Source: a virus. From it: a stretch of DNA of 38,767 nucleotides. The stretch lies in the IMG/VR virus record IMGVR_UViG_3300037493_002362, positions 1 through 38,767 of that record, one strand, 5' to 3'. The notes beneath the pieces are model-generated. The model was not told the DNA's origin and made no database searches. It saw only the letters and a list, made by a program, of their open reading frames with translations. A program made the translations under genes and the position numbers. Of this stretch, positions 6,481 to 38,558 are shown piece after piece (within the stretch, counting starts at the first letter, position 1; the number at the start of each line of letters is the position of its first letter).

Positions 6481-6869
6481 CGGTCGATGCTCCACGCGGT
6501 CGCAGTCGGCTATTTGTCGGGCTGCTCGTGACCCTGCTAATGTTCCTGCTCCTGCTCCTGACATGCTCAACATACTTAGCGGTCGTAAACGTGCAAAAGA
6601 ACCGCTCTAGCAGCGCAGCTGCACGTCAGCGCAATGTGGAACTAGAGGGGCAGAAAAAGGACTACCTTCATAGGATCCTGACGCTAGAAGCCGAAGTGAG
6701 TGAAGAGCGCAGACAGAACAGCGATCGCGACAAACTAATTGTAACCGCGCTCATGCGAATAGATAATCGTATACGCGAACTAACCCGAGTCGATGAAACA
6801 ATTACTCAGCTTGATTCTACTGAACTTACTGACCTGCTCAATAGCATTGCCGCAACACGCGGTCTATGA
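6468..6869 (+). CDS. Inner-membrane spanin-like protein
   Basis: This 133-aa protein has a very hydrophobic single membrane anchor at about residues 15-41 and a long helical periplasmic part rich in E, R and L, the layout of an i-spanin (Rz-like). It starts within the endolysin gene and its end overlaps the next lysis gene by 77 bases in another frame, as in Rz/Rz1 pairs. Spanins join inner and outer membranes at the end of lysis, which also implies a Gram-negative host. Assignment by topology and context. Confidence 0.55.
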   Translation: MDVLTVDAPRGRSRLFVGLLVTLLMFLLLLLTCSTYLAVVNVQKNRSSSAAARQRNVELEGQKKDYLHRILTLEAEVSEERRQNSDRDKLIVTALMRIDNRIRELTRVDETITQLDSTELTDLLNSIAATRGL

Positions 6870-7212
6870 TGGTGGTCGGTACTGCATGTCTAAGGGCTTG
6901 ACAGAATTCCTAGTGGCACAGCATTTAAAGAACGGAATTATTGAGGCTAATGTCATCGACCTTCAATCGGTCAATTCCAACCTGACGGGCAAGGTAGAAA
7001 GTCTAGAGGTGCAGGTCAGTAAACTCACTTCGGCAAATTCGCTGCGAGATTCGGTTATAGCGGTGGTGGAAGAGCAAGGGGCTATTTCAAAGAAAGAACT
7101 TAGGCGGCTGCGCTCAAAAGCAGCCGGAGCGTGGTTCAAGAACAATTGGGAAAAGGTGCTAATAGGCGGTAGCGCATTCGGGCTAGGCTACGGCTTCGCG
7201 CAAATCAGGTAA
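6793..7212 (+). CDS. Outer-membrane or unimolecular spanin candidate
   Basis: The 139-aa product begins with a signal-like segment (MKQLLSLILLNLLTC). Its Cys15 is preceded by Leu-Leu-Thr, an imperfect lipobox; SPase I cleavage after SIA is the alternative. A helical, coiled-coil-like middle (about 50-110) leads to a C-terminal membrane segment (VLIGGSAFGLGYGFA). A lipid-anchored N-terminus plus a C-terminal TM is the plan of unimolecular spanins such as T1 gp11. The gene starts inside the previous spanin-like gene, so either the two cooperate or one is redundant. Confidence 0.5.
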   Translation: MKQLLSLILLNLLTCSIALPQHAVYDGGRYCMSKGLTEFLVAQHLKNGIIEANVIDLQSVNSNLTGKVESLEVQVSKLTSANSLRDSVIAVVEEQGAISKKELRRLRSKAAGAWFKNNWEKVLIGGSAFGLGYGFAQIR

Positions 7213-7411
7213 CAATTTTCAGGTGGTGGTGGTGTCGGGGGTCTGCTCCTGACTGAAAAGGTATGTCCATTAAATTCCTACTAAGAAGCAATCTTTTTCC
7301 AAAAACTTTTGCCAAAAGTTTGTTGGTTCTGTTTTAATTGCTTTGGTTTGTCGGGTCGTTCGGCAACGAAGCCCTTCGACTTTACTACAAACACCTACAA
7401 ACACCTACAAA
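7213..7411 (+). promoter_or_regulatory. Intergenic region between lysis and early genes
   Basis: About 200 bases without a gene separate the lysis cassette from the early genes. The region holds a palindrome at 7303-7321, a T-rich stretch, and TTGCTTTG at 7338-7345, one base off the Bacteroidota -7 box TAnnTTTG. No TTG lies at the expected upstream distance. CAAACACCTA occurs twice in tandem just before the ATG at 7412. It is the best location for an early promoter, but the element itself is not certain. Confidence 0.4.
7299..7326. repeat. AT-rich palindrome, possible terminator or operator
   Basis: AAACTTTT (7303-7310) and AAAAGTTT (7314-7321) form perfect arms around GCC. CCAA and TTGG extend the symmetry with one unpaired base. 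A moderately T-rich stretch follows. It could end the lysis message or bind a dimeric regulator of the early genes. Confidence 0.5.
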
Positions 7412-8327: not shown

Positions 8328-8597
8328 ATGGAATCGAAATTCAATCAAATAATAGAAGCCGCGAAGAGCGGTGAAATGACCCTTCCTTCCGTGTCGATGA
8401 ACGGTGTGCAAGTGGACTACCTAGAGTATCAACTAATCGTGCATTCCTTTAACCTGAAGTTGATGGCTGCAGGGCTGAAGGTACGAGGGGTTACATTCAC
8501 CCAAATCAAGAAGTTCTACGGACTTCGCGCTCGTTCTGCAGCCGATGCCGTTCCGGAACTCGAATCAGTTAAATCAACCTACAAAAACAACAAATAA
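8328..8597 (+). CDS. Hypothetical early protein, 89 aa
   Basis: A small soluble protein with a helical layout. The segment FTQIKKFYGLRARSAADAV could be a helix-turn-helix-like pair, but the signal is weak. It lies in a run of small genes separated by 20-35 bases. Function unknown. Confidence 0.55.
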   Translation: MESKFNQIIEAAKSGEMTLPSVSMNGVQVDYLEYQLIVHSFNLKLMAAGLKVRGVTFTQIKKFYGLRARSAADAVPELESVKSTYKNNK

Positions 8598-10241: not shown

Positions 10242-10445
10242 ATGACAGAACCTGAAAAATGCAATCAACTAAGACTAGCCCTTCCGAGCGGTGGAATAAC
10301 CCGAATTTGTGAGGCTACTGGCTATTCCTACGAAGTTGTGTACAGAACCTTGAACGGGAATGTACGCAAGTGGGATGCCCGTCACGATGCGATCGTGAAA
10401 GAGGGTCGTAGGCTGCTCCGGAAGAACGGGGTGAAGCTAATCTAA
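10242..10445 (+). CDS. Small helix-turn-helix DNA-binding protein
   Basis: The 67-aa basic protein has a Cro/lambda-repressor-like helix-turn-helix at about residues 18-42 (GITRICEATGYSYEVVYRTL), with a charged C-terminal helix. It has its own promoter candidate (10212) and is closed off by a hairpin (10450-10475), so it forms a single-gene unit. It is a plausible regulator of early gene expression; a repressor role is inferred. Confidence 0.7.
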   Translation: MTEPEKCNQLRLALPSGGITRICEATGYSYEVVYRTLNGNVRKWDARHDAIVKEGRRLLRKNGVKLI

Positions 10446-13126: not shown

Positions 13127-13875
13127 ACTCGACAGGAAGCAAGATGAACAGATTCTACTTTCAGCACGATTGCGGTGCTATGGACGATGACCGAATACTC
13201 GACCTTCGCGCTGACCACGGTTGGTGCGGATACGGGTTATTTTGGGCTATACTGGAACTACTCCACCGTAATGACGGCTTAATGGTGTTCGATGTAAAGC
13301 GTATCGGCTTCGCGTTGGGAGCGGAACAGTCGGTGGTGCACAAGATCCTGACGGGCTACGGGCTATTCGAATTCACGGATGATAATTTGCACTTTTGGTC
13401 TGCTCGGCTTCTGAGCCAAATTAAGCACCGTTCTAAACTTATGGAACTTAGGCAGGAAGCAGGTCGCAAGGGTGGTAAAGCAAGAGCCAAGCAAGACGGT
13501 TCGGTTGCTGAAGCAAACGACAAGCAATTGCTAGGCAAATCACAACCAAAGGAAAGTAAAGGAAAGGAAAGTAAAGGAAAGGAAAGTGCAGTAGCGGTCG
13601 CTATCGCTCCTGCGCTCACTTCGATTCCTGAAATGGAAGATGTAATAAGATCCTTCGCTTCGTCTGCAACTTCGCGTGGCATTGATCCTGCGCAGGTAAA
13701 GATCGTGACACACGCCAAAAATTTCCTTGATCACTATGGGTCGCAAGGGTGGCGAAAAGGAAACGGTATGCCCATAACAGATTGGCGACTGCTCGTATCG
13801 CGATGGCTAACAACCGAACTAGGAAAAAGAGACCCGCAAAATTCACCTAAACCAACAAGAACATGGGGACAATGA
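13123..13875 (+). CDS. DUF4373 (Lin1244/Lin1753) replication-initiation-like protein
   Basis: This 250-aa protein has the N-terminal winged-helix domain known from Lin1244/Lin1753 proteins: FYFQHDCGAMDDDRIL, followed by GYGLFWAILELL and GLFEF. These proteins occur in phage replication modules and are related to DnaD/initiator proteins. A charged linker follows (RKGGKARAK), then a repeat encoding KESKGKES from tandem GGAAAGTAAA units (13552-13588), and a C-terminal helical domain. It probably helps start replication with host enzymes, since no phage polymerase or helicase is seen. Confidence 0.7.
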   Translation: MNSTGSKMNRFYFQHDCGAMDDDRILDLRADHGWCGYGLFWAILELLHRNDGLMVFDVKRIGFALGAEQSVVHKILTGYGLFEFTDDNLHFWSARLLSQIKHRSKLMELRQEAGRKGGKARAKQDGSVAEANDKQLLGKSQPKESKGKESKGKESAVAVAIAPALTSIPEMEDVIRSFASSATSRGIDPAQVKIVTHAKNFLDHYGSQGWRKGNGMPITDWRLLVSRWLTTELGKRDPQNSPKPTRTWGQ

Positions 13876-15579: not shown

Positions 15580-16026
15580 ATGAGCGAAGGAAAATTTATT
15601 AAAAAGAAAACATACTACACTGGTGTAGTGTATGAATGGAACTTACCGACTGGTAGTAGTTGCCCGTTTGCCTTAGAATGCAAAGTAACAGTTGATAGAA
15701 TATCGGGTAAGTTCGATGTTGAAAAAGGTGCGTATAGGTGCTACGCTGCAAGTGCTGAAAGATTCCCTGCTGTTAGGGAGCATAGGTGGAAAAATTTTGA
15801 CTTGGTTAAAAATAGTGGAATACCTACAATACCAAAAGATTGCAATGCAATAAGAATACACATGAGCGGTGATTTCTTTAACCAAAAATACTTTGATATG
15901 TGGGTGCAACTTGCAAAAGATAATCCCAATATTGAGATGTGGGCTTATACAAAGTCATTGCAATATTGGGTAAACAGAACCCAATCAACCCTCGAACGAT
16001 CGTTCCTGAAAAGTTGGCACAGCTGA
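15580..16026 (+). CDS. GP88-like protein, C-terminally truncated
   Basis: The 148-aa product resembles the GP88 family of phage proteins. It has the N-terminal LPTGSSCPFALEC motif, then YRCYAAS, a conserved RW-N, the IRIHMSGDFF segment and WAYTKSLQYWVN. Full members of the family are, as I recall, considerably longer. Here similarity ends at WVNR, about 15975, and the remaining 16 residues read a shifted ParB coding region. Codons are much more AT-rich than in the flanking genes. The biochemical function of the family is not established; conserved Cys suggest a metal or Fe-S site. It may be a remnant or a shortened active form. Confidence 0.65.
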   Translation: MSEGKFIKKKTYYTGVVYEWNLPTGSSCPFALECKVTVDRISGKFDVEKGAYRCYAASAERFPAVREHRWKNFDLVKNSGIPTIPKDCNAIRIHMSGDFFNQKYFDMWVQLAKDNPNIEMWAYTKSLQYWVNRTQSTLERSFLKSWHS

Positions 16027-16535
16027 AACAAAGTCTGACAGACTTCCCACAAATGCTCCTGCTCCGACCTATCGTAGTAGATGAAAATAATGTTCTATTG
16101 GGAGGCAATATGCGGCTTCGCGCTCTTAGAGAACTAGGCATCAAAGAGGTGTTAGTTCACGTGGTGTCCGGATGGACCGAAGAGCAGAAGAAGGAATTCA
16201 TTGTTAAAGACAATCTCAACTACGGTGACTGGAACTATTCGGTACTTGATTCATGGGATCAGGATAAGCTAGGCGCATGGGGTCTGACGACATGGTCGCT
16301 GAATCAGGAACAGAAAGAGATTCCCGAACCGTACACCAAACAGCAGCCGACAGGCGGTGATGCTCCTGCGCACGTTCCACACGTTCCGTCATTGAAGCTA
16401 CTGATCGACTTCAATATCAATGATTACCCTGAAGCTAGGCGACTGGTAGATACGTTGGTGGTAAGGGGCTTCGACTTCGAACAATTTCTACATGCGGCTC
16501 TGACCGAATCACTTAAAGCTACCGATGGCAATTAA
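15939..16535 (+). CDS. ParB-like nuclease-fold protein 1
   Basis: Reading from a GTG at 15939 gives 198 aa. The core is typical of the ParB/sulfiredoxin-like fold: NPRTI, LKQSLTDFPQML, RPIVVD, GGNMRLRALRELG, and FIVKDNLNYGDWN. The first ~12 residues lie in sequence that is also the end of the GP88-like gene, so the native N-terminus may have been replaced by recombination. A C-terminal domain of ~70 residues follows. ParB-like proteins are frequently linked to phage DNA-modification enzymes (Iyer and colleagues, 2013), where they may direct or sense modification. Confidence 0.75.
   Translation: MGLYKVIAILGKQNPINPRTIVPEKLAQLKQSLTDFPQMLLLRPIVVDENNVLLGGNMRLRALRELGIKEVLVHVVSGWTEEQKKEFIVKDNLNYGDWNYSVLDSWDQDKLGAWGLTTWSLNQEQKEIPEPYTKQQPTGGDAPAHVPHVPSLKLLIDFNINDYPEARRLVDTLVVRGFDFEQFLHAALTESLKATDGN
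15965..15985. repeat. Hairpin at the GP88/ParB junction
   Basis: ATTGGGT (15965-15971) and ACCCAAT (15979-15985) are perfect inverted repeats around seven bases. They lie exactly where GP88 similarity stops and ParB similarity starts, which marks a probable recombination or deletion breakpoint. Confidence 0.6.
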
Positions 16536-17094
16536 GCAGTACCCTATAGCGCACCTGAAGCCACACGCGGACAACCCAAGGGTAATTGACGATCACCGCA
16601 TGGCTACCCTAAAGCGGTCTATCGAAGACTTCCCTGAAATGTTGAAGATTCGACCTGTCGTTATTGATGAGGACAACACTATCCTAGCAGGAAATATGCG
16701 CTATCGGGCTTGTATGGAACTAGGCCATGAACAAGTATGGTGCGATCGGGTACGCGGTCTAACGGCTGAAGAAAAGCGTGAATTTGTAGTTAAGGACAAT
16801 GTAACCTATGGGCAATGGGATGATGAGGTGATCGAGCAGCACTTCAAAACAGACATGATGGAGCGGTGGACTGGCGATGCTACTATTGACTATGGCTTCC
16901 TAGACGAATTCATATCGATGGACGATGAACTAGCAGACAGGGCTAACGATGTTGTTCGCTCCATTGCGTTCCACCTACCCAATCTGTTCTACGAAGTTAA
17001 AGACATGGACGGTGCGCTTCGCGGTAATGGCGTTGACGTTGGTTCGGTGGTGGTGACCGCACTTAGATTAGCCGTAGCAGATGGTAAAGGTTGA
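16525..17094 (+). CDS. ParB-like nuclease-fold protein 2
   Basis: The 189-aa protein repeats the ParB-like core of its neighbour: DNPRVI, LKRSIEDFPEML, RPVVIDED, GNMRYRACMELG and FVVKDNVTYGQWD. The two are clearly related but diverged, and the C-terminal parts differ, so this is an old tandem duplication or two recruited paralogues. It overlaps the upstream gene by 11 bases and the downstream dioxygenase by 14, placing it in one translation unit with the modification enzymes. Confidence 0.85.
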   Translation: MAIKQYPIAHLKPHADNPRVIDDHRMATLKRSIEDFPEMLKIRPVVIDEDNTILAGNMRYRACMELGHEQVWCDRVRGLTAEEKREFVVKDNVTYGQWDDEVIEQHFKTDMMERWTGDATIDYGFLDEFISMDDELADRANDVVRSIAFHLPNLFYEVKDMDGALRGNGVDVGSVVVTALRLAVADGKG

Positions 17095-17863
17095 ACTATC
17101 AAGCGTTCCACATGACGTGAAGGTCGGGGACATCTGCTCTGACATAGAAGCTAACGTACTGGTAGATTCACTGTTCATGGAAGATGGGCGACCTATCGGC
17201 TTCTACCTGTCAAACATAGCTGCTCATTCGCATGAACTTTGGCGGCTTATTGAGGTGGCAAATGCCGAATTCAATTCCAAGCGTGTACCTAAGTCGGAAA
17301 TGCGTAGATCGAGCGGACTAGCCGACCCGTCAATGGAAGTGAAGCAATACTCTACCATCATCGGATCCGTTCCCTCGAAGCCCAACATGAGAAGGAACAG
17401 CCACAGGGTGTCGTCAGTTCATGGTGTACCGACCGCGCAGACCTTCATAAAGTCAATGCTACATGCTGCGCTCGAATCTGAACGGCTTATTGAAAAGTAT
17501 CTTCCACTTACCTACGCGGCTCAACGTGACTTGTTTGACAGGGAGATTCCGGAACATTGGCGATTCGGGAACCTGTTCACTTCATCAATATCCAACTTCA
17601 ATATAGCTGCTCCGTTCCACACCGATCGTGCGAATCTGCGCGATTGCGTTAATGTCATCATAGTCAAGAAACGATGGGCGAACGGTGGAAACACGACCGT
17701 ACCTGACTACGCTGCGACAATGAACTCCTGCGATAACTCGATGCTCGTTTACCCTGCATGGAAGTCTATTCACGGGGTCACACCGATTCACCTACTCAGG
17801 CGCGATGGCTACCGCAATTCCTTCGTGTTTTATCCGCTCAAAGCGTTCCGTAAGGATGCCTGA
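17081..17863 (+). CDS. TET/JBP-like Fe(II)/2-oxoglutarate DNA dioxygenase
   Basis: The 260-aa protein carries the iron-binding triad of this superfamily: His180 and Asp182 in PFHTD, and His231 in SIHGV, followed by Arg245 that would hold 2-oxoglutarate. The surrounding LFTSSISNFNIAAPFHTD, GG-TTVPDY and YPAWKSIHGVTPI segments match the TET/JBP family found in phages beside ParB-like genes. Family members oxidise the 5-methyl group of thymine or 5-methylcytosine in DNA. With no cytosine methylase or hydroxymethyl-dUMP synthase in sight, thymine is the favoured substrate (inference). Overlaps neighbours by 14 and 8 bases. Confidence 0.8.
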   Translation: MVKVELSSVPHDVKVGDICSDIEANVLVDSLFMEDGRPIGFYLSNIAAHSHELWRLIEVANAEFNSKRVPKSEMRRSSGLADPSMEVKQYSTIIGSVPSKPNMRRNSHRVSSVHGVPTAQTFIKSMLHAALESERLIEKYLPLTYAAQRDLFDREIPEHWRFGNLFTSSISNFNIAAPFHTDRANLRDCVNVIIVKKRWANGGNTTVPDYAATMNSCDNSMLVYPAWKSIHGVTPIHLLRRDGYRNSFVFYPLKAFRKDA

Positions 17864-18848
17864 AACGATCTTCGAGAATGTCGGCTTCGACCGGAGCGTG
17901 GTAAAATGGGAAGAACACCTGTATGACCTTACTCCTGTTGAGAAGCACGGGGCGGTATGGTTCAAACGGGAAGATAAATTCGCTCCACTAGGCTATGGGT
18001 CAATCAATGGAAGTAAACTAAGGCAATGTATTTGGCTGATTCGCGGCTTCGTTACCGAAAAACAAGCCAAGGGTATTGTATCAGGGTCGGTAGTCGGATC
18101 GCCACAGCACCCGATGATAGCGGCTATCTGTAAGCATTATGGCATCGGGTGTCTTATTGCCACACCTGCAGCCCGAATAGAAGATCATGAGTACCTGACT
18201 ATGGCTCGTGATTGGGGGGCTAAGTTTTACCGAACAAAGATAGGCTACGCGAAAGCCCTTCAAGCAACAGCCCTAAAGCTATCAAAGCGGCTATCTAGGC
18301 ATGAACTACTAGAAACTAACATCACGGTCGATGAACGACTGAACAGCGCACATAGGATAGCGGCATTCCATGAAGTGGGGTCGTATCAGGTGACTAACCT
18401 ACCGGAGCATATCGAAACGATAATCATACCTGCAGGGTCGTGTAATTCGGTGGTGTCGGTGCTGACTGGTATCATCAGGTTTAAGCCCAAGAACCTGAAA
18501 CGTGTCATAATGATGGGCATTGGAAATTACGGCTCAAAGAAGCCGCAGCACGTGCAACAACGGCTCAAAATTGTCGGCTCAATTATGGGCTTCGAACCCG
18601 ATGAATTTTTCAGTTACGCATGGTCGGCAGAACGTAATTCTCTGTCCATCGACATCATGCATCACGACCTTAACGGGTCGGGCTTCTGCTCGTATGCAGA
18701 CCTGATGCCGTTTCAAGAAAATGGAATTTCGTTCCACCCAAGATATGAAGGAAAAGTAATGAATTACATGCACGATAACCCTGACTTATTTGGCACTTTT
18801 CAGGACGATAAAACGCTATTTTGGATCATCGGAAGTGGTGTTTCTTGA
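17856..18848 (+). CDS. Fold-type II PLP-dependent enzyme
   Basis: I prefer the ATG at 17856 (330 aa, eight-base overlap) to an earlier one at 17805. FKREDKFAPLG and NGSKLRQ with Lys54 as the Schiff-base residue place it in the tryptophan-synthase-beta superfamily, near ACC deaminase and D-cysteine desulfhydrase. The phosphate loop reads IPAGSCNSV, where relatives often have GSGGT-like sequence. Related PLP enzymes are predicted in phage thymine-hypermodification operons to act on an amino-acid moiety attached to the base. The exact reaction is unknown. Fifteen bases after its stop a duplicated non-coding element begins. Confidence 0.8.
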   Translation: MPETIFENVGFDRSVVKWEEHLYDLTPVEKHGAVWFKREDKFAPLGYGSINGSKLRQCIWLIRGFVTEKQAKGIVSGSVVGSPQHPMIAAICKHYGIGCLIATPAARIEDHEYLTMARDWGAKFYRTKIGYAKALQATALKLSKRLSRHELLETNITVDERLNSAHRIAAFHEVGSYQVTNLPEHIETIIIPAGSCNSVVSVLTGIIRFKPKNLKRVIMMGIGNYGSKKPQHVQQRLKIVGSIMGFEPDEFFSYAWSAERNSLSIDIMHHDLNGSGFCSYADLMPFQENGISFHPRYEGKVMNYMHDNPDLFGTFQDDKTLFWIIGSGVS

Positions 18849-18862
18849 AAAACATGAAATGC

Positions 18863-18942
18863 ACGAGAACCCACTTTTGCGGCATTCTGAGCAACTATCT
18901 ATGTTGGAAGCTATGCCGTGTTAAGAAAGAAAAGATATTAGA
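18863..18942 (+). repeat. Duplicated non-coding element, copy A
   Basis: Two blocks are shared with 37944-38023: ACGAGAACCCACTTTT (16 bases, 18863-18878) and a 25-base purine-rich block starting GTGTTAAGAAAG (18918-18942). The blocks start 55 bases apart in both copies, with a partly conserved 39-base spacer. TAGATTTG, a -7-like box, overlaps the end of this copy (18939-18946) but is absent in the other. Function unknown: promoter, RNA element, origin or packaging signal are possible. Confidence 0.85.
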
Positions 18943-18994
18943 TTTGACTACGAAAAGTCACTGAAATTGACCAAAAGTTAAAAGCAAAAATTTC

Positions 18995-20098
18995 ATGCAA
19001 AAAGGTCGTTATTGCCACCTGAACGGGATAGAAGAAGTGACTGAATTACAGGCAGGAATGGACTTCCGATTGCCACAATATCGAAGGGAAGTTTTCATGC
19101 GGTTTTATGAATTTCACCTTCGGTATAAGGCACACGCAGGGGCTGTTTATTACGCAATTCCATTCATAATATCGCGGTATAATCTTGACATGGAGCAGCG
19201 TTTATGGTTCGCTTTCATCAATGGATGCACACAGAACATCATCACCACAAACATCATTTTTCAACGATTTCCTGACCTGCTCCTGCTCGATATTCAAGAA
19301 CTGGAACGGTACTTTCAAAGCCACTATTCGCAATTCGGATGGGACACAGACCGTAGGTATCACAAGTCGAATTTCATTGATTGTGTGCGGTCGTATCGGG
19401 CTTCGCTCGGTGGCGGCTCACAGGTAGATGTGATGGATCGGCTCACGGTGACTGGCGATCCGTTTCAGACCTTCCGGAACTATTGGGAGCATACCCGTAC
19501 TAAATTGCTGTCGTTCGGCAGACTATCCACCTTCAGCTATCTTGAATACCTGCGATTGGTCGGGGTGCAATTAGATTGCCCTGAACTATTCATTGACGAC
19601 CTGAGCGGAAGCAGGTCACATAGGAACGGGGTGTGCAAGGTGCTTGGTAGGGATGATATTGATTGGTGGAAACAACCCGAGCACCCGTATGACAAAGAGG
19701 GCATCGCGTGGTTGACCGATGAGGCGGCTCTGCTCCTGTCGGAAGCCAAGGCGCGAATAGATCACCCTGACGTTAGCTACTTCACGCTCGAAACAACTCT
19801 ATGCTGCTACAAGTCGTGGCATCGACCGAACAGAAGATACCCGAACGTGTATAACGATATGTTCTTCGAACGGATAATCTACGCGATGCAGAAGTGGCAA
19901 ACACGTGAAGTGGGTGAAATATGGTGGGAATGCAGAAGATTGTCGCTACCCAAACATCTGCTACTCGAAGCCAATAGGAATGACAAAGGGCTGCACCCGA
20001 TCAAACAGAACCACTATCGGCTTACCGGAGAAGTAATAATGATGGATCGTGAATACCCTTGCTTTAAAAACAGATACAATGACCGACACTCCAAGTAA
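18995..20098 (+). CDS. 5-hmU DNA kinase-type helical domain protein (aGPT-Pplase2-like)
   Basis: The 367-aa protein is mainly helical. Its N-terminal half (YRREVFMRFYEFHLRYKAHAG, then FINGCTQN and a following FP) resembles the helical domain that accompanies the P-loop kinase in phage 5-hydroxymethyluracil DNA kinases, originally predicted as a glutamyl/putrescinyl-thymine pyrophosphorylase clade. Later conserved-looking points are ETTLCCYKSWHR and RRYPNVYNDM. The kinase P-loop itself is encoded by the next gene, overlapping by 20 bases. Together they may form the enzyme that activates oxidised thymine for further modification. Recognition is by pattern only. Confidence 0.65.
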   Translation: MQKGRYCHLNGIEEVTELQAGMDFRLPQYRREVFMRFYEFHLRYKAHAGAVYYAIPFIISRYNLDMEQRLWFAFINGCTQNIITTNIIFQRFPDLLLLDIQELERYFQSHYSQFGWDTDRRYHKSNFIDCVRSYRASLGGGSQVDVMDRLTVTGDPFQTFRNYWEHTRTKLLSFGRLSTFSYLEYLRLVGVQLDCPELFIDDLSGSRSHRNGVCKVLGRDDIDWWKQPEHPYDKEGIAWLTDEAALLLSEAKARIDHPDVSYFTLETTLCCYKSWHRPNRRYPNVYNDMFFERIIYAMQKWQTREVGEIWWECRRLSLPKHLLLEANRNDKGLHPIKQNHYRLTGEVIMMDREYPCFKNRYNDRHSK

Positions 20099-20561
20099 CA
20101 TACTCCTGATTGGAAATTGTGGCGTGGGTAAGACATGGGTGATGCTCCAACTCATATCCCGTTTACGCATGAGCAAACAGGTCAAGTACAATAGGCTATG
20201 GTGGCTAACAAACGGTCGGGTCAACATGATTGGCAAGTATGACAGAACCGCGTGGCAAGGGTCGGATAAATTGTCCATGGCTGTGATGTTAGACGTACCT
20301 GCGTACCTAGACTCGTTTAGCGACAAGTACACCGTATGGGAAGGTGATCGATTCACTAACAGCAAGTTCATTGCAAAAGCAAAGCCCTTCATCATTCGAA
20401 TTGAAGGGTCGGGTGAAACGGGAAGATACCTTCGCGGCTCTGAACAGTCAGAACGCCACCTTAAAGCAATCGCAACAAGGGTGTCTAACATTCCTGCTAA
20501 CATGACCGTTGAAAGTAGTAAGGCGGCTCTTGATTACATTTGCTCACTATACGACTTCTAA
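20079..20561 (+). CDS. P-loop 5-hmU DNA kinase-like protein
   Basis: I chose the ATG at 20079 (160 aa); a GTG at 20049 is less likely. A Walker A motif, GNCGVGKT, lies at 12-19; KYDRTAWQGSDKLSMAVM follows at about 53-70 and WEGDRFTN at 87-94, which is the signature of the kinase domain that phosphorylates 5-hydroxymethyluracil in phage DNA. A basic helix, SERHLKAIATRVSNI, closes the domain. The gene ends two bases before the terminase small subunit, tying modification to the packaging operon. Confidence 0.75.
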   Translation: MTDTPSNILLIGNCGVGKTWVMLQLISRLRMSKQVKYNRLWWLTNGRVNMIGKYDRTAWQGSDKLSMAVMLDVPAYLDSFSDKYTVWEGDRFTNSKFIAKAKPFIIRIEGSGETGRYLRGSEQSERHLKAIATRVSNIPANMTVESSKAALDYICSLYDF

Positions 20562-20562
20562 G

Positions 20563-20895
20563 ATGGAACAGAACAGAACCGAACATACTAAAAAGGCAAT
20601 GGTAGCCGCTTTGACTAAGACTTTAGGGGTGGTTACTCCTGCTCTGAAGATGGCTGACGTTGGCAGAACAACCTTCTATCAATGGTTGAAAGACGACCCT
20701 GAATTCGCGCAAGAGGTGGACGATCTTGATGATGTGTCGCTCGACTTCGCTGTCCATGCCCTGCATAAGAAGATTAAGAACGGGAATATTGCTGCGATTA
20801 TCTTCTACCTCAAAACGCAGGGCAAACATAGGGGCTTTGTCGAGCGTACCGAAACGGTGTTCACAGACATTAATGTGGAAATGACCGATGATTAA
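20563..20895 (+). CDS. terS: Terminase small subunit
   Basis: From the ATG at 20563 the protein is 110 aa. An N-terminal helix-turn-helix (LGVVTPALKMADVGRTTFYQWLKDD) is followed by a helical region and AIIFYLKTQGKHRGFVER, a common TerS pattern. It recognises the packaging start on phage DNA and loads the large subunit. It overlaps terL by eight bases. Confidence 0.85.
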   Translation: MEQNRTEHTKKAMVAALTKTLGVVTPALKMADVGRTTFYQWLKDDPEFAQEVDDLDDVSLDFAVHALHKKIKNGNIAAIIFYLKTQGKHRGFVERTETVFTDINVEMTDD

Positions 20896-22256: not shown

Positions 22257-22678
<422 letters not shown>

Positions 22679-23419: not shown

Positions 23420-24057
23420 AAGTAACCTATATCGATGTTGGGCTTCATCGCTCTGCTCCGGAAGTAAGTATGTTCATTCAGGTGTGCGAACGGCTCGGAC
23501 TAGATTATCACGTCTATGGCATTGAAGCCGACCCGTTGTATGCTCCTGATCTTGTGGCACTATTTGCCGACAACCCTAAGGTCGAAATATTCTCGTTCGC
23601 TGTCGCTGCTGAAGATGGTACGTGTCGGCTGTACAGGTCTGCATTCCTAAACGGGGAAGGGTCGTCAATCTACGCCACAAAGAACAACGTAGATCCATCA
23701 GATTCCGTGGAAGTTCTGTCGCGGAAACTATCGGGCTTTATGAAGGGAATTGACCTGCATGACGCAGTTGTCCTGAAGTGGAATATCGAAGGGGCTGAGT
23801 ACCCAATGATGAACGACCTAATTGAGTCGGGGCTTTACCGCAATATTGACCTTTGGTGCGGAGCAGGTTCCGATATGTACAAGGTGGCGGAGTTAGCCGA
23901 ACTAGAGTATAGCTACCACTTGGCGATGCTGCAGCACGGTATAGGGCAATTCAAGTTCCACGATCACTACGACCCATGGCTAAAGAAGCGGATGATTGAT
24001 GAAATGGAATTCAGGCTGACCGCACTTCGCGATGCCTACTACCTACGCCATGCGTAG
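23416..24057 (+). CDS. FkbM-family methyltransferase
   Basis: The 213-aa protein has the Rossmann-type layout of FkbM methyltransferases, with IEADP at 36-40 for SAM binding and KWNIEGAE at 121-128 as the family's motif near the active site. FkbM enzymes O-methylate sugars and other small groups. It runs head-on into a glycosyltransferase gene on the other strand with a 19-base overlap. The two plus a third gene may form a glycan-modifying cassette acting on virion proteins, DNA or host surface (inference). Confidence 0.8.
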   Translation: MKVTYIDVGLHRSAPEVSMFIQVCERLGLDYHVYGIEADPLYAPDLVALFADNPKVEIFSFAVAAEDGTCRLYRSAFLNGEGSSIYATKNNVDPSDSVEVLSRKLSGFMKGIDLHDAVVLKWNIEGAEYPMMNDLIESGLYRNIDLWCGAGSDMYKVAELAELEYSYHLAMLQHGIGQFKFHDHYDPWLKKRMIDEMEFRLTALRDAYYLRHA

Positions 24058-24665
24058 AAGATCCCTGTAAGATTCCTGAACACTGCTCCGTTCGCATACA
24101 TTCTACGCCACAGGTCTATGTCCTGTTTCCTGCGCAGGGTCGGATTGTACCCACCTACCGCTAACACAGCAGACTTCCGATAAACAACCGTTCCGTGATT
24201 GACAAGCCAATCTGCATTGGAACTGGAAGAAGTCCGCGGAACAGGTGCTTCAGGATGATCGGTAATGAATAGGGGCTGACGTCTGATGTCGTTCGACTGG
24301 AATGCGAATAGGTTAGTGCCAAGTACATCACAATCCGGATTGTCCTGTAAGTACGCGAACTGATGCATTAACCGTTGGGGTGAACACACATCATCACTAT
24401 CCATGCGTACAATGAACTCCGTATCGCACAGGTCGATGGCATGGTTCAATACTGATGCAAGACCTGCGTTCGGGCTGAGTCGTATTACTTCCATGCGACT
24501 AGACAGATACTCTATTGCATCGATGGTGTCCTGATCCGTGGAACAGTCGTCAATCAGGATGAATCTGAACGGCTCGTCAATGTCCTGATTGACTATTGAA
24601 CTTACGGCTTCTAATAGGTGGTCGGGTCGGGTATTGTAAACAGGAATGACTACGGTGAAGTTCAA
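24039..24665 (-). CDS. Family 2 glycosyltransferase
   Basis: The 208-aa protein is a GT-A fold transferase. VVIPVYN is at the N-terminus, IDD at 38-40 lies in the nucleotide-sugar site, and MDSDD at 88-92 is the metal-binding DxD-like motif. A later region (GGYNPTLRRKQDIDLWRRM) holds the acceptor-side acid motif. No membrane segment. Encoded on the minus strand together with the methyltransferase at 24662. The substrate is unknown. Confidence 0.88.
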   Translation of the reverse strand: MNFTVVIPVYNTRPDHLLEAVSSIVNQDIDEPFRFILIDDCSTDQDTIDAIEYLSSRMEVIRLSPNAGLASVLNHAIDLCDTEFIVRMDSDDVCSPQRLMHQFAYLQDNPDCDVLGTNLFAFQSNDIRRQPLFITDHPEAPVPRTSSSSNADWLVNHGTVVYRKSAVLAVGGYNPTLRRKQDIDLWRRMYANGAVFRNLTGIFYAWRR

Positions 24666-25114
24666 GCCCTTCTACCGTAGGTCACAAATATATTTCCGTG
24701 CTGAAATGTATGCGCTCCGTTGGCAAACTTACCTGACAATGCTAGGCAGCATGAATCGTATGAGGTCTGACCCTCGGTAATGACGATAAGGTGCTTACCG
24801 CTTGGAATAATGTCAATCGCTGAACTCGATCGGCAAATAACTATGTCTGATTTCAGTTTCATGATGGTCGTATCGTCTGCGCTCTTGGCGTGGAATCTCG
24901 AACTCATGCCCGTGATTCGCTTGGCTAGGGCTATTTTGACCGGATCGGCATCAACACCCTGATAGCGTGGAAAGCCCTCGGATTTCAGGTGCGCTCCGAA
25001 CTCACCCGAGCCACAGCCTATTTCTAAAATACCCTCCTTTGAAGGGTCTATTTTGGCTTCAAGATAACTGATGATCGCGGATATTACGCCTAGCTTAACG
25101 AGTGACTGGTACAT
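24662..25114 (-). CDS. Class I SAM-dependent methyltransferase
   Basis: The 150-aa protein has the SAM-binding motif ILEIGCGSGEFG at 29-40 and VDAD at the end of the second strand. It is shorter than many family members and the C-terminal half is reduced. It overlaps the glycosyltransferase start by four bases, and both are read from a promoter at 25138-25145 that lies back to back with the late promoter at 25131-25163. Confidence 0.75.
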   Translation of the reverse strand: MYQSLVKLGVISAIISYLEAKIDPSKEGILEIGCGSGEFGAHLKSEGFPRYQGVDADPVKIALAKRITGMSSRFHAKSADDTTIMKLKSDIVICRSSSAIDIIPSGKHLIVITEGQTSYDSCCLALSGKFANGAHTFQHGNIFVTYGRRA

Positions 25115-26801: not shown

Positions 26802-26950
26802 ACCTACTTTGCGAGGGTGATGAAAGACAGTTACATTTGCTAGACGATTGGACAATATTTGACTACTATTTCCACCTGAACGAAATGGTAGTAAGACCAC
26901 CTGATAAACGTAAAGCAATGCAACGTGTCAGATCAAAGAGTAGTAATTGA
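26639..26950 (+). CDS. gpT-like extension of the tail chaperone, -1 frame
   Basis: This frame has no own start and runs open from 26618 to the TGA at 26948-26950, crossing the gpG stop at 26801. Downstream of the stop it encodes a protein-like stretch (YRNTIDLLCEGDERQLHLLD, then WTIFDYYFHLNEM) ending in a basic tail, which fits the T part of gpGT proteins. It overlaps the tape measure start by 26 bases. The shift point within 26618-26801 is not settled. Confidence 0.65.
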   Translation, partial: FATATKGIDAVLKRLRGQFQGLFGSSGKGKQTSLEQPLHAIFGGGRIQSYRNTIDLLCEGDERQLHLLDDWTIFDYYFHLNEMVVRPPDKRKAMQRVRSKSSN

Positions 26951-35172: not shown

Positions 35173-36927
35173 ATGATAGAACTAACTCCCACAATCCTGC
35201 TCCCGTATTTCACAGGACAAGCAAAACATTCGGCTTACGCTGAAACGGTAAATCGGTACAACGCTCTGAAGGTTCATGCCAATGGTGAGTACCCTGCGGC
35301 ACTCATAGATGATCGCAGACCCAATGAACCTGAAGAAGTTAAAAAGTATCGTAAGTCAATCTACGAGCCGATCACGCAAGATGTGATACTTCGCGTTATG
35401 GCTTCGCTGTCCAAGATCCGTAGAAGTTCGGATTGGAATGTGCAGTATAATCTAGGCAACTACCCTTCTCGAATAGCTGAAGAAGAACGGCTCGACTGGT
35501 ACACAGAAAAGAACTACCCAATTACGGGCGCATACGAAAATTGGCTATTTACGATCGCTCTGAAGAACTATCTGCTCGACGCTAATGCAGTTGTCCTAAT
35601 CGCTCCGATAATGGCAGAGACGGCAGATAATGAGTATCTGCGGCCATTTGCAACCGTTTACAATTCGCCAAGGGTTATAGAATTTATCCCTGACGAACTA
35701 CTGATCGTAAGTTTAGAGCCTGATACTTCTGTCGGGCAAAAGAAGGCACAGGCGCAGCGATTCTTGGCGGTGAACAAGCAATCGATGCAACGGTACATTC
35801 AGAAAGATGATGGCTACGTAATGGAATGGGAGTACGTGCATAACCTAGGGGTGCTACCTGCGTTCAAAATTGGTGGACAGTACTTTTCCTCCGTTGGTCG
35901 CAACCTGCTCTATGACAGCAGAATTGCACCGATGGTTCCACGATTGAATGACGCGGCACGAGAGTACTCCGATCTTCAGGCAGAAGTGGTGCTGCATATC
36001 CATTCAGAAACATGGTCGTGGGCTTCTACTAAATGTCCTAGGTGTCAAGACGGTTCGGGTATTCCAAGGGGCTTTGTGAATGACGACAAGACAAAGAAGC
36101 GGCTTGTATGCCCTACCTGCAACGGGAATCAGTTGATTTCATCAAGCCCTTATTCGACCCTTACGGTGCGACCTTCTAATGAGAACATGGGAGAACAGGC
36201 TGCTCCGATCCCACCGAAAGGGTACATCACGAAGCCGATCGATATTGTAAAGATTCAGGATGAGCGCGTGGACAAACATCTGTTCAGGGCTTTAGCCGCA
36301 ATCAATATGCAATTCCTAGACCAAACACCGCTGAACATATCGGGTGTAGGTAAAGAAGTTGATCGCGATGAACTGAACAACTTCGTGTACTCCGTAGCCG
36401 AGGACTTAGTACGGATCGCAGACAATTCATATTCCCTATTCGCGGACTATCGGTACGCTCTGCTCGTTCCGGAACGCAATGATCGGGCTGCTCTGATCCC
36501 TGAAATTAAAGTACCGGAAAAGTATGACCTACTATCGTCTAACTACTTGACCGAAGAGATCAAATCGGTAAGGGATGCTCAAATTAGTTCGGTGGTGGCG
36601 GCTGCGCTCGAAGTTGAATTCGCATCGAAGAAGTTCTACACCAACCCGATCATACGCGAAACGGTGAAAGCGGTACTCCTGCTCGACCCATTGGCAGGTG
36701 TAGATGAAGATGATAAATCGCTTCGCTTCAGTACGGGTGGGGTGACCCGATTGGACTACGTTATGTCATCGAACATAAACCAGTTGGTGCAGGATGCGGT
36801 GTATAATGATCCTGACTTCATTACTCTAGGTCGCTTAGAGCAGCTAAAAATAATACGAGCATTGGCTGAACAAAAGGTAAAGGAAATTGATAAGTTGAAG
36901 GTTCGAATAGAGCCATTACCTGAGTGA
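35173..36927 (+). CDS. Portal protein with a zinc-ribbon-like insertion
   Basis: The 584-aa protein has portal-type composition and is followed at once by the MuF-type protein. Residues 288-316 contain two CxxC pairs (CPRC at 288-291, CPTC at 313-316) separated by a 21-residue loop with DGSG, like a DnaJ-type zinc hairpin. The C-terminal part is helical. It forms the dodecameric ring through which DNA enters the head. Unusually, it is 13 kb from terL, after the tail genes. Confidence 0.85.
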   Translation: MIELTPTILLPYFTGQAKHSAYAETVNRYNALKVHANGEYPAALIDDRRPNEPEEVKKYRKSIYEPITQDVILRVMASLSKIRRSSDWNVQYNLGNYPSRIAEEERLDWYTEKNYPITGAYENWLFTIALKNYLLDANAVVLIAPIMAETADNEYLRPFATVYNSPRVIEFIPDELLIVSLEPDTSVGQKKAQAQRFLAVNKQSMQRYIQKDDGYVMEWEYVHNLGVLPAFKIGGQYFSSVGRNLLYDSRIAPMVPRLNDAAREYSDLQAEVVLHIHSETWSWASTKCPRCQDGSGIPRGFVNDDKTKKRLVCPTCNGNQLISSSPYSTLTVRPSNENMGEQAAPIPPKGYITKPIDIVKIQDERVDKHLFRALAAINMQFLDQTPLNISGVGKEVDRDELNNFVYSVAEDLVRIADNSYSLFADYRYALLVPERNDRAALIPEIKVPEKYDLLSSNYLTEEIKSVRDAQISSVVAAALEVEFASKKFYTNPIIRETVKAVLLLDPLAGVDEDDKSLRFSTGGVTRLDYVMSSNINQLVQDAVYNDPDFITLGRLEQLKIIRALAEQKVKEIDKLKVRIEPLPE

Positions 36928-37880
36928 TGTCTAGCGTTAACCACTTAGATGAATTGATCCGTGTTATTGATGATGCTGTTCGCGGTATTAATGAAGCACT
37001 ACCTTCATTCGAAGCGCAAATAGTCAGGGAACTCGAACTCCTGCTCCGTGAACTTGACTTAGGGGCTGACGGTTCGGTAAAGCCGACCGCGAAGAACCTA
37101 CGCGTGGTGGGTGCGATGAAAGCGAAAATGGAACGTATCATCATGTCAGGTGAATACACGGCTTCGGTGGATAGCTTTCTTGATTCCTATGCCGACATAA
37201 GCCAACTTCAGGCGAAGTACTTCCAAACGCTAGAAGCTGCGTGGAAGCCCACACCGCTACTGAAGGAACTTCAAACACAGTCATTAGATGCAGCGACACA
37301 GGCACTTCTGCGCGGTGGAATATCCGTAAACGTGGTTGACCCTGTAATGGGAATTCTGCGAACAAACGTCACAACAGGTGTTCAATATACTGAACTGATT
37401 GAGCAGCTAAGAACGTACATTCAGGGCAATGCCGAATCAGTAGGGCATTTGGAACGCTACGTTAAGCAGATCACCACCGATAGTCTGAACCAGTACGCGG
37501 CTCAATACAATGAACTCGTATCTTCTGACCTTGACCTGCATTGGTTCAGATACAGGGGTCATCGAACACTCACAAGCAGATCGTTCTGCATTGCCATGGT
37601 CAACAAACAATGGTATCATCGAAAGGAATTGTACGACCTGATACATGGTGACTTCGAGCAATTTCGGGCGGTCAAAGGGAAGATCTATCAAGTAACCGGA
37701 CTGCCCGATGGCATGGTGTCGGGGACTAATCCGGAAAACTTTTTCGTGTATCGTGGTGGGTATAACTGCCCTCATCAACCCATTGGCATATCCGAAATTA
37801 ATGTTCCGAAAAATGAGCGGATCAGGGTGTACAAAAAGTATGGAATACCATACGACAAGAACGGTATCGCCACCAAATAA
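36927..37880 (+). CDS. MuF-type head morphogenesis protein
   Basis: From the ATG in TGATG at 36927 the protein is 317 aa. The C-terminal motif FVYRGGYNCPHQPIG and the preceding helical domain (ALLRGG, TTDSLNQYAAQYNEL) fit minor head proteins of the SPP1 gp7/Mu F type, injected or attached near the portal. It ends the rightward structural genes before the minus-strand unit. An assignment by motif and by the portal neighbour. Confidence 0.8.
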   Translation: MSSVNHLDELIRVIDDAVRGINEALPSFEAQIVRELELLLRELDLGADGSVKPTAKNLRVVGAMKAKMERIIMSGEYTASVDSFLDSYADISQLQAKYFQTLEAAWKPTPLLKELQTQSLDAATQALLRGGISVNVVDPVMGILRTNVTTGVQYTELIEQLRTYIQGNAESVGHLERYVKQITTDSLNQYAAQYNELVSSDLDLHWFRYRGHRTLTSRSFCIAMVNKQWYHRKELYDLIHGDFEQFRAVKGKIYQVTGLPDGMVSGTNPENFFVYRGGYNCPHQPIGISEINVPKNERIRVYKKYGIPYDKNGIATK

Positions 37881-37943
37881 TCGGTGAAATTTACGCCACT
37901 TTTTACCCAAAAAAAGCAACCTTTTTGGAAATTGCCAAAACGG

Positions 37944-38023
37944 ACGAGAACCCACTTTTAAAGCACTCTGAAGGACTTTCCACCTATTTCTACATTGGGT
38001 GTTAAGAAAGAAAAGATATTAGA
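37944..38023 (+). repeat. Duplicated non-coding element, copy B
   Basis: The second copy of the element at 18863-18942. The same 16-base block is at 37944-37959 and the same 25-base block at 37999-38023, again 55 bases start to start. The spacer shares GCA-TCTGA and CT-TC positions. It lies 64 bases past the MuF gene in an intergenic region of 213 bases, together with a minus-strand terminator that begins inside its end. Confidence 0.85.
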
Positions 38024-38045
38024 AAACCCTATGGGAGTGAGGGTT
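38021..38045 (-). terminator. Terminator for the minus-strand unit
   Basis: Read on the minus strand, AACCCT and AGGGTT (38045-38040 and 38030-38025) form a six-bp stem over a nine-base loop, followed by TTCT. It is 49 bases past the last minus-strand stop. The stem is short, so this is moderate evidence. Confidence 0.45.
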
Positions 38046-38093
38046 GTAGAAGGGGTCAAAAACTTGGCGCGATGCTTGTAATGGTCGCAAAAT

Positions 38094-38294
38094 TCAGGCA
38101 AATTTTCGGGTTATTTTCTGCGCGGAGATCAGCAATTTTGTCATCTGCCATTCGGCATGTAGTTGTTGAAATTCGGTGTCAGAATAGCCCGATGCACAGC
38201 ATGAAATTTGCAGCCAACACAGACCTATTTCCATGTCAGAACGGCAATTGATAATTGCGTTTAGGGCGGTGTGGAATGGTAGAAAAGTGTCCAT
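38094..38294 (-). CDS. Hypothetical protein, 66 aa, minus strand
   Basis: I place the start at the ATG at 38294, one base after the upstream RHH gene stop; the frame is open further upstream only because it shadows that gene. The product starts MDTFLPFHTALNAI and has a Cys-rich middle (GLCWLQISCCASG) and a basic helical end. Two-gene layout with an RHH protein recalls antitoxin-toxin or repressor-effector pairs, but no toxin family is recognised. Confidence 0.55.
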   Translation of the reverse strand: MDTFLPFHTALNAIINCRSDMEIGLCWLQISCCASGYSDTEFQQLHAEWQMTKLLISAQKITRKFA

Positions 38295-38295
38295 T

Positions 38296-38451
38296 TCATT
38301 TGGGGCTTCGTCTGATAAGATTGTAAATTGCTTGAGGGTTGGAAGCCGCTTTACCTGTCTTAATTTCCACACGTGACTTCTCCATAACGATGCGCTCATG
38401 CACATCATCAGGAACGTCACGCAGCAATATGGTTACCGTATCTTTAGCCAT
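38296..38451 (-). CDS. Ribbon-helix-helix-like regulator, 51 aa
   Basis: This short minus-strand gene encodes MAKDTVTILLRDVPDDVHER, a strand followed by a helix, as in Arc/ParD-type ribbon-helix-helix proteins (the TVTILLRDVP strand binds DNA as a dimer; DDVHERI begins the first helix). The remaining 30 residues are helical and basic. It has its own -7 box and is divergent from the scaffolding gene, 107 bases away. Regulation of the structural operon or of its own is likely (inference). Confidence 0.7.
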   Translation of the reverse strand: MAKDTVTILLRDVPDDVHERIVMEKSRVEIKTGKAASNPQAIYNLIRRSPK

Positions 38452-38473
38452 TGGTCGGTGTTAACATGGTTAG

Positions 38474-38481
38474 CAAAGATA
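38474..38481 (-). promoter_or_regulatory. Minus-strand -7 box for the RHH gene
   Basis: TATCTTTG on the minus strand matches TAnnTTTG exactly and is 22 bases upstream of the RHH start. The -33 element is not obvious. It is paired with a plus-strand box at 38526. Confidence 0.55.
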
Positions 38482-38525
38482 ACACAAATTGCACCTGCTC
38501 CTGCAGAAAGTCGGAACAGTAGGCA

Positions 38526-38533
38526 TACTTTTG
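38526..38533 (+). promoter_or_regulatory. -7 box for the scaffolding/capsid operon
   Basis: TACTTTTG fits TAnnTTTG and lies 25 bases before the scaffolding ATG. No TTG is at the expected distance. With the box at 38474 it makes a divergent regulatory region of about 107 bases. Confidence 0.5.
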
Positions 38534-38558
38534 GAAGCGTAAACAACTGTTTAAATAC

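Follow-up and report, generated by a model that had tools for sequence, protein, structure and literature searches.

A two-block intergenic element duplicated in a circular phage genome, a candidate promoter or leader unit

The window is the whole of a complete circular virus record (IMGVR_UViG_3300037493_002362; 38,767 nucleotides, of which the first 127 recur as the last 127, a terminal overlap that leaves a circle of 38,640 bp). It contains two copies of an 80-base element, both on the plus strand and both wholly intergenic, in which two identical blocks flank a spacer of constant length:

18863..18878, plus strand: copy 1, block 1 (ACGAGAACCCACTTTT); exact match to 37944-37959
18879..18917, plus strand: copy 1, spacer of 39 bases, with a GCGGCAT/ATGCCGT stem just 5' of block 2
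18918..18942, plus strand: copy 1, block 2 (GTGTTAAGAAAGAAAAGATATTAGA); exact match to 37999-38023
37944..37959, plus strand: copy 2, block 1 (ACGAGAACCCACTTTT); exact match to copy 1
37960..37998, plus strand: copy 2, spacer of 39 bases
37999..38023, plus strand: copy 2, block 2 (GTGTTAAGAAAGAAAAGATATTAGA); exact match to copy 1

A preliminary description of this DNA had reported the 16- and 25-base identities at 18863/18918 and 37944/37999, with an offset of 55 bases in both copies, and this is exact. The spacing is kept although the spacer has diverged, with 17 of its 39 positions in agreement (44%) and no insertion or deletion, and over the full 80 bases the copies agree at 58 positions where the maximum in three codon-shuffled genomes was 41-44. 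Chance would be expected to supply 6e-7 exact repeats of 25 bases and 0.15 of 16 bases, figures in which the shared offset is not yet counted. A weaker similarity between the copies reaches about 20 bases further upstream (from 18841). At up to 4 mismatches for block 1 or 8 for block 2 the genome holds no third copy, save one 8-mismatch match at 15595, and the element is the sole such pair in it. What had been said of its placement stands in part. The two gaps were described as the only intergenic regions of this kind; they are indeed the longest two, but gaps of at least 100 bp also lie at 7213-7342, 26802-26924 and 38451-38558. Similarly, the copies do lie nearly opposite on the circle, 19,081 bp apart one way and 19,559 bp the other, an arrangement found at about 1% under random placement and one that has no other support.

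Copy 1 is situated inside a DNA-modification cassette, upstream of the genes for packaging:

17805-18848: PALP-like gene, ending 15 bases before copy 1
18849..18994, plus strand: intergenic region with copy 1, between the PALP-like gene and the amino acid:DNA transferase gene
18995..20098, plus strand: amino acid:DNA transferase (ADDT; Pfam PF18724, E=2.5e-19), the first gene past copy 1
20509-20895: terminase small subunit, at distances of 1.6 kb (copy 1) and 17 kb (copy 2)

From the end of copy 1 to the start of ADDT there are 52 bases, and the terminase small and large subunit genes come after ADDT. Relatives that bear ADDT have no such gap 5' of it. The cassette itself (15939-20098) encodes two ParB-like proteins, a Tet/JBP-like dioxygenase, the PALP-like enzyme and the amino acid:DNA transferase, and suggests that the window phage has hypermodified bases.

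Copy 2 lies within the head gene region, where it is convergent with a small minus-strand operon:

35173: portal-like gene
36924..37880, plus strand: MuF-type minor head protein gene, named from gene order; the last gene before copy 2, which starts 64 bases on
37881..38093, plus strand: intergenic region with copy 2, 3' of the MuF-type gene
38094..38294, minus strand: 66-aa open reading frame, its 3' end facing copy 2
38296..38451, minus strand: 51-aa ribbon-helix-helix-like protein, so described from its translation and from a low-confidence structure model with two helices; −7 box TATCTTTG at 38481
38526..38533, plus strand: predicted −7 box of the host type (TACTTTTG), 5' of the scaffold-like gene
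38559-809 (circular): scaffold-like gene
853-1995: capsid-like gene

The names portal-like, MuF-like, scaffold-like and capsid-like are based on synteny and not on a family match. In all head-module relatives the MuF-type gene is syntenic, after the portal-like gene and before the scaffold-like and capsid-like genes. Past copy 2, the two minus-strand genes stand in place of a small plus-strand gene of the relatives, and the next plus-strand gene is 535 bases away and has its own predicted −7 box.

Genes of the window are without Shine-Dalgarno sites and have an A-rich stretch upstream, as is described for genes of Bacteroidota (PMC6847099), and we infer that the virus is probably a phage of Bacteroidota bacteria. 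The −7 box of the primary sigma factor of these bacteria is TAHHTTTG (PMC6847099), given as TAnnTTTG in PMC9723704. Seven of the 18 TAHHTTTG sites in the window are intergenic, the gaps making up 3.5% of the circle (p=1.6e-6), and because the boxes are enriched in gaps the phage seems to rely on promoters of the host type at several positions:

2004, 10212, 25156, 26832 and 38526: intergenic −7 boxes (TAHHTTTG match)
25145 and 38481, minus strand: intergenic −7 boxes (TAHHTTTG match)

Shortly past the box at 2004, and 3' of the capsid-like gene, a clear intrinsic-terminator-like stem (GGGGTGGG/CCCACCCC and a T run) occupies 2017-2047. A minus-strand pair of glycosyltransferase-like and methyltransferase-like genes (24039-25114) is inserted in the late block, and the adjoining gap has −7 boxes on both strands. 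Separately, a motif CTGCTCCTGCTCC recurs on the coding strand (2572, 6544, 11769, 13900, 14385, 22584-22620, 26154, 30675), several times near gene 3' ends with Ala-Pro-rich tails.

No TAHHTTTG box is present in either gap that holds the element. Copy 1 ends with TAGATTTG, whose G stands at a place where the known consensus all but rules out that base. Copy 2 is without TAGATTTG and has TAGAAAAC; nor does either gap contain a TTG...TAnnTTTG pair, with a −33 TTTG/TTG 17-24 bases upstream. The Bacteroidota primary-sigma promoter (TTTG / TAHHTTTG; PMC6847099, PMC9723704) is found at the same site in five relatives and also in other gaps of the window, but neither copy of the element has its −7 consensus. 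The block sequences resemble no known promoter, and PHROGs and Pfam scans of the proteins, many of which have no family, recognised no phage RNA polymerase or sigma factor. Candidate regulators encoded by the phage are the 51-aa protein (38296-38451) and an HTH protein (10242-10445).

Searches of phage records, plasmids, IMG/VR and GTDB genomes did not find the element sequence; they gave only short, weak hits and, in coding sequence with no relation to it, four pattern matches. Terminase and ADDT queries returned distant relatives only and capsid and tail queries none, and it was the portal query that led to closer relatives, including G013 (capsid 67% and portal 57% identical) and L057 (capsid 63%), with capsid identities of 62-67% for the nearest; none of the closer relatives carries the element. 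Five of them (G007, G008, G010, G011 and G012) have a coding-strand TAHHTTTG box in the short gap 3' of the MuF gene, against a chance expectation of 0.02-0.06 per gap, the five amounting to about three independent observations as G010-G012 are mutually related. Because of these boxes the post-MuF site is, judged from sequence, a promoter position in the phage group of the window. Another relative, G017, has a 44-base gap at this site with neither a TAHHTTTG box nor a duplicate.

The closest relative, G013, has at this site a duplicated 99-bp unit of its own, the two copies being 8.8 kb apart:

IMGVR_UViG_3300006734_000039, 8462-8560: unit copy in the post-MuF gap
IMGVR_UViG_3300006734_000039, 17241-17339: unit copy at another block boundary, 3' of a homologue of window 6793-7212

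Aligned without gaps, these match at 95 of 104 bases, with most of the differences in AT-rich sequence that separates two conserved blocks. Each starts a few to about 25 bases past a stop codon, runs with transcription, and comprises a GTCGGC/GCCGAC stem and then an A-rich stretch. The likeness to the window element is one of design: both occur as two wholly intergenic copies that point the same way, both keep two blocks conserved on either side of a divergent, fixed-length spacer, both have one copy post-MuF, and neither has a canonical −7 box (TAHHTTTG). In contrast, there is no sequence similarity, the G013 unit runs up to the next gene's start codon, and its second copy is at a different boundary. 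Conservation in relatives, to which the preliminary description had looked, accordingly fails at the level of sequence and holds for position and architecture. G013 also has a repeated hairpin GCCGGTCATCACGCCG past two neighbouring small genes (8921 and 9187; L065/L067), and two other relatives have in their early regions promoter-like intergenic sequence (TATATTTG) that is present twice, some 3-4 kb apart (L048/L049, G011 29694 and 32808; L046, G010 5206 and 8888).

With roughly even odds (a probability of about 0.5), the element would be a lineage-specific duplicated promoter/leader unit, read rightward along the plus strand. It is read so because the site of copy 2 is the promoter position of the family and because G013 has there its own duplicated unit of like architecture. 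A phage-specific promoter is also the best supported of the options raised at the outset, by way of synteny (the box in five relatives and the independent duplicated unit in the closest one). Its recognition as a promoter/leader unit is by analogy with G013, since the element sequence occurs in no relative. Observed are the repeat with its position and orientation, two copies that have no ordinary −7 box, and at the copy 2 site of relatives the box or a duplicated unit. We infer that transcription would start at the element, a phage-made or alternative factor recognising block 1 together with some of the spacer and the start lying at or near block 2. This second block would be either the place of initiation or an A-rich 5' leader of the RNA. 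Copy 1 would then start the block that opens with the ADDT and terminase genes, and copy 2, at the promoter position of the family, would precede the scaffold/capsid block. The main difficulty for a promoter is that copy 2 faces two minus-strand genes, and so either its transcript would cross these into the capsid block, or its target may have been lost when they replaced the small plus-strand gene.

The element could instead act as RNA within a passing transcript, as a hairpin-flanked signal that sits where one gene block gives way to another and serves antitermination, processing or stability, and this seems unlikely. The copy 1 stem does abut block 2, and within the 80-base copies CUUUY can pair with GAAAG in both, as in about 2.5% of spacer shuffles for each. 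However, whole-element folding energies are those of shuffles, the opposite strand folds equally unremarkably, and Rfam gives no family at either gathering or loose thresholds. The regulatory RNA suggested earlier is weakly indicated: copy 1 has a good hairpin 5' of block 2, whereas copy 2 pairs no more with its natural flanks than with random ones. The put sites of HK022 come in two copies. Like the element these are short, near the starts of gene blocks and oriented with transcription, but they work via a defined RNA structure (PMC9378689), and copy 2 shows none. Two further readings were dropped: a boxA-like signal on the minus strand, there being no minus-strand gene near copy 1, and an intrinsic terminator, a scan of both regions finding none at the element. 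Coding origins have also to be weighed, in that the element may be the diverged remnant of a duplicated coding 3' end, or a tiny gene, with the frame FLE....ENPLL(K/R)HSE.LS......C and then a common stop. Among the six frames the best one scores above column shuffles (p 0.005-0.03), several differences are synonymous and the stop codon (TGT TAA) is common to both copies. Yet in copy 1 the frame has the codon usage of non-coding sequence, with copy 2 intermediate, start codons are not kept between copies, the most conserved 18 bases lie 3' of the stop, and the frame has no homologue in phage records or Pfam, all of which makes this quite unlikely. A dioxygenase remnant, thought of from a motif likeness in L004, was dropped as the matching copy 1 residues are not kept in copy 2.

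Both copies sit where the window phage differs from its relatives, before ADDT and beside the minus-strand pair that replaces the small plus-strand gene, and so the element might be a linker or scar that module exchange left behind, a short piece of DNA duplicated together with incoming gene cassettes and now without function. That is rather improbable, because blocks of 16 and 25 bases that stay perfectly identical around a spacer only 44% identical yet constant in length argue for selection and not decay. A protein-binding DNA site other than a promoter (an operator or stoperator, a paired origin, a partition or a packaging site) is also rather improbable, although an asymmetric element in two like-oriented copies almost opposite on the circle would suit it, as would the two ParB-like proteins and the ribbon-helix-helix-like protein encoded in the window. 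The ParB-like genes stand among DNA-modification genes. The origin pair of the preliminary description finds no turn of GC skew at either copy (the skew is positive and the cumulative skew rises throughout), and iteron-like repeats lie in the replication-initiator gene instead; these AAAGGAAAGT repeats, at 13548-13592 inside the initiator-like gene, mark a candidate origin. Nor is there support for the packaging signal proposed there, the terminase small and large genes being not adjacent to the element but 1.6 kb downstream of copy 1 and far from copy 2. Stoperators of cluster A mycobacteriophages (PMC6550527, PMC9283540) are likewise asymmetric non-coding repeats between genes, but the element has only two copies, a two-block design and no identified repressor.

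Overall a duplicated phage-specific expression element is of a known kind, and it is the sequence of the element that is new. It is possible but doubtful, as a pattern based on two genomes, that this group of Bacteroidota phages repeatedly swaps the host promoter at a fixed site for a private two-block element, with two copies per genome, a sequence unrelated from lineage to lineage and a phage-encoded factor to read it. If true, it would mean fast-evolving private promoters for the head, packaging and DNA-modification gene blocks. Few studies have dealt with transcription control in Bacteroidota phages, and a short element that two gene blocks have in common, and for which a relative has a counterpart at the same site, opens a direct route to the timing of their genes and to the factor that reads the signal.
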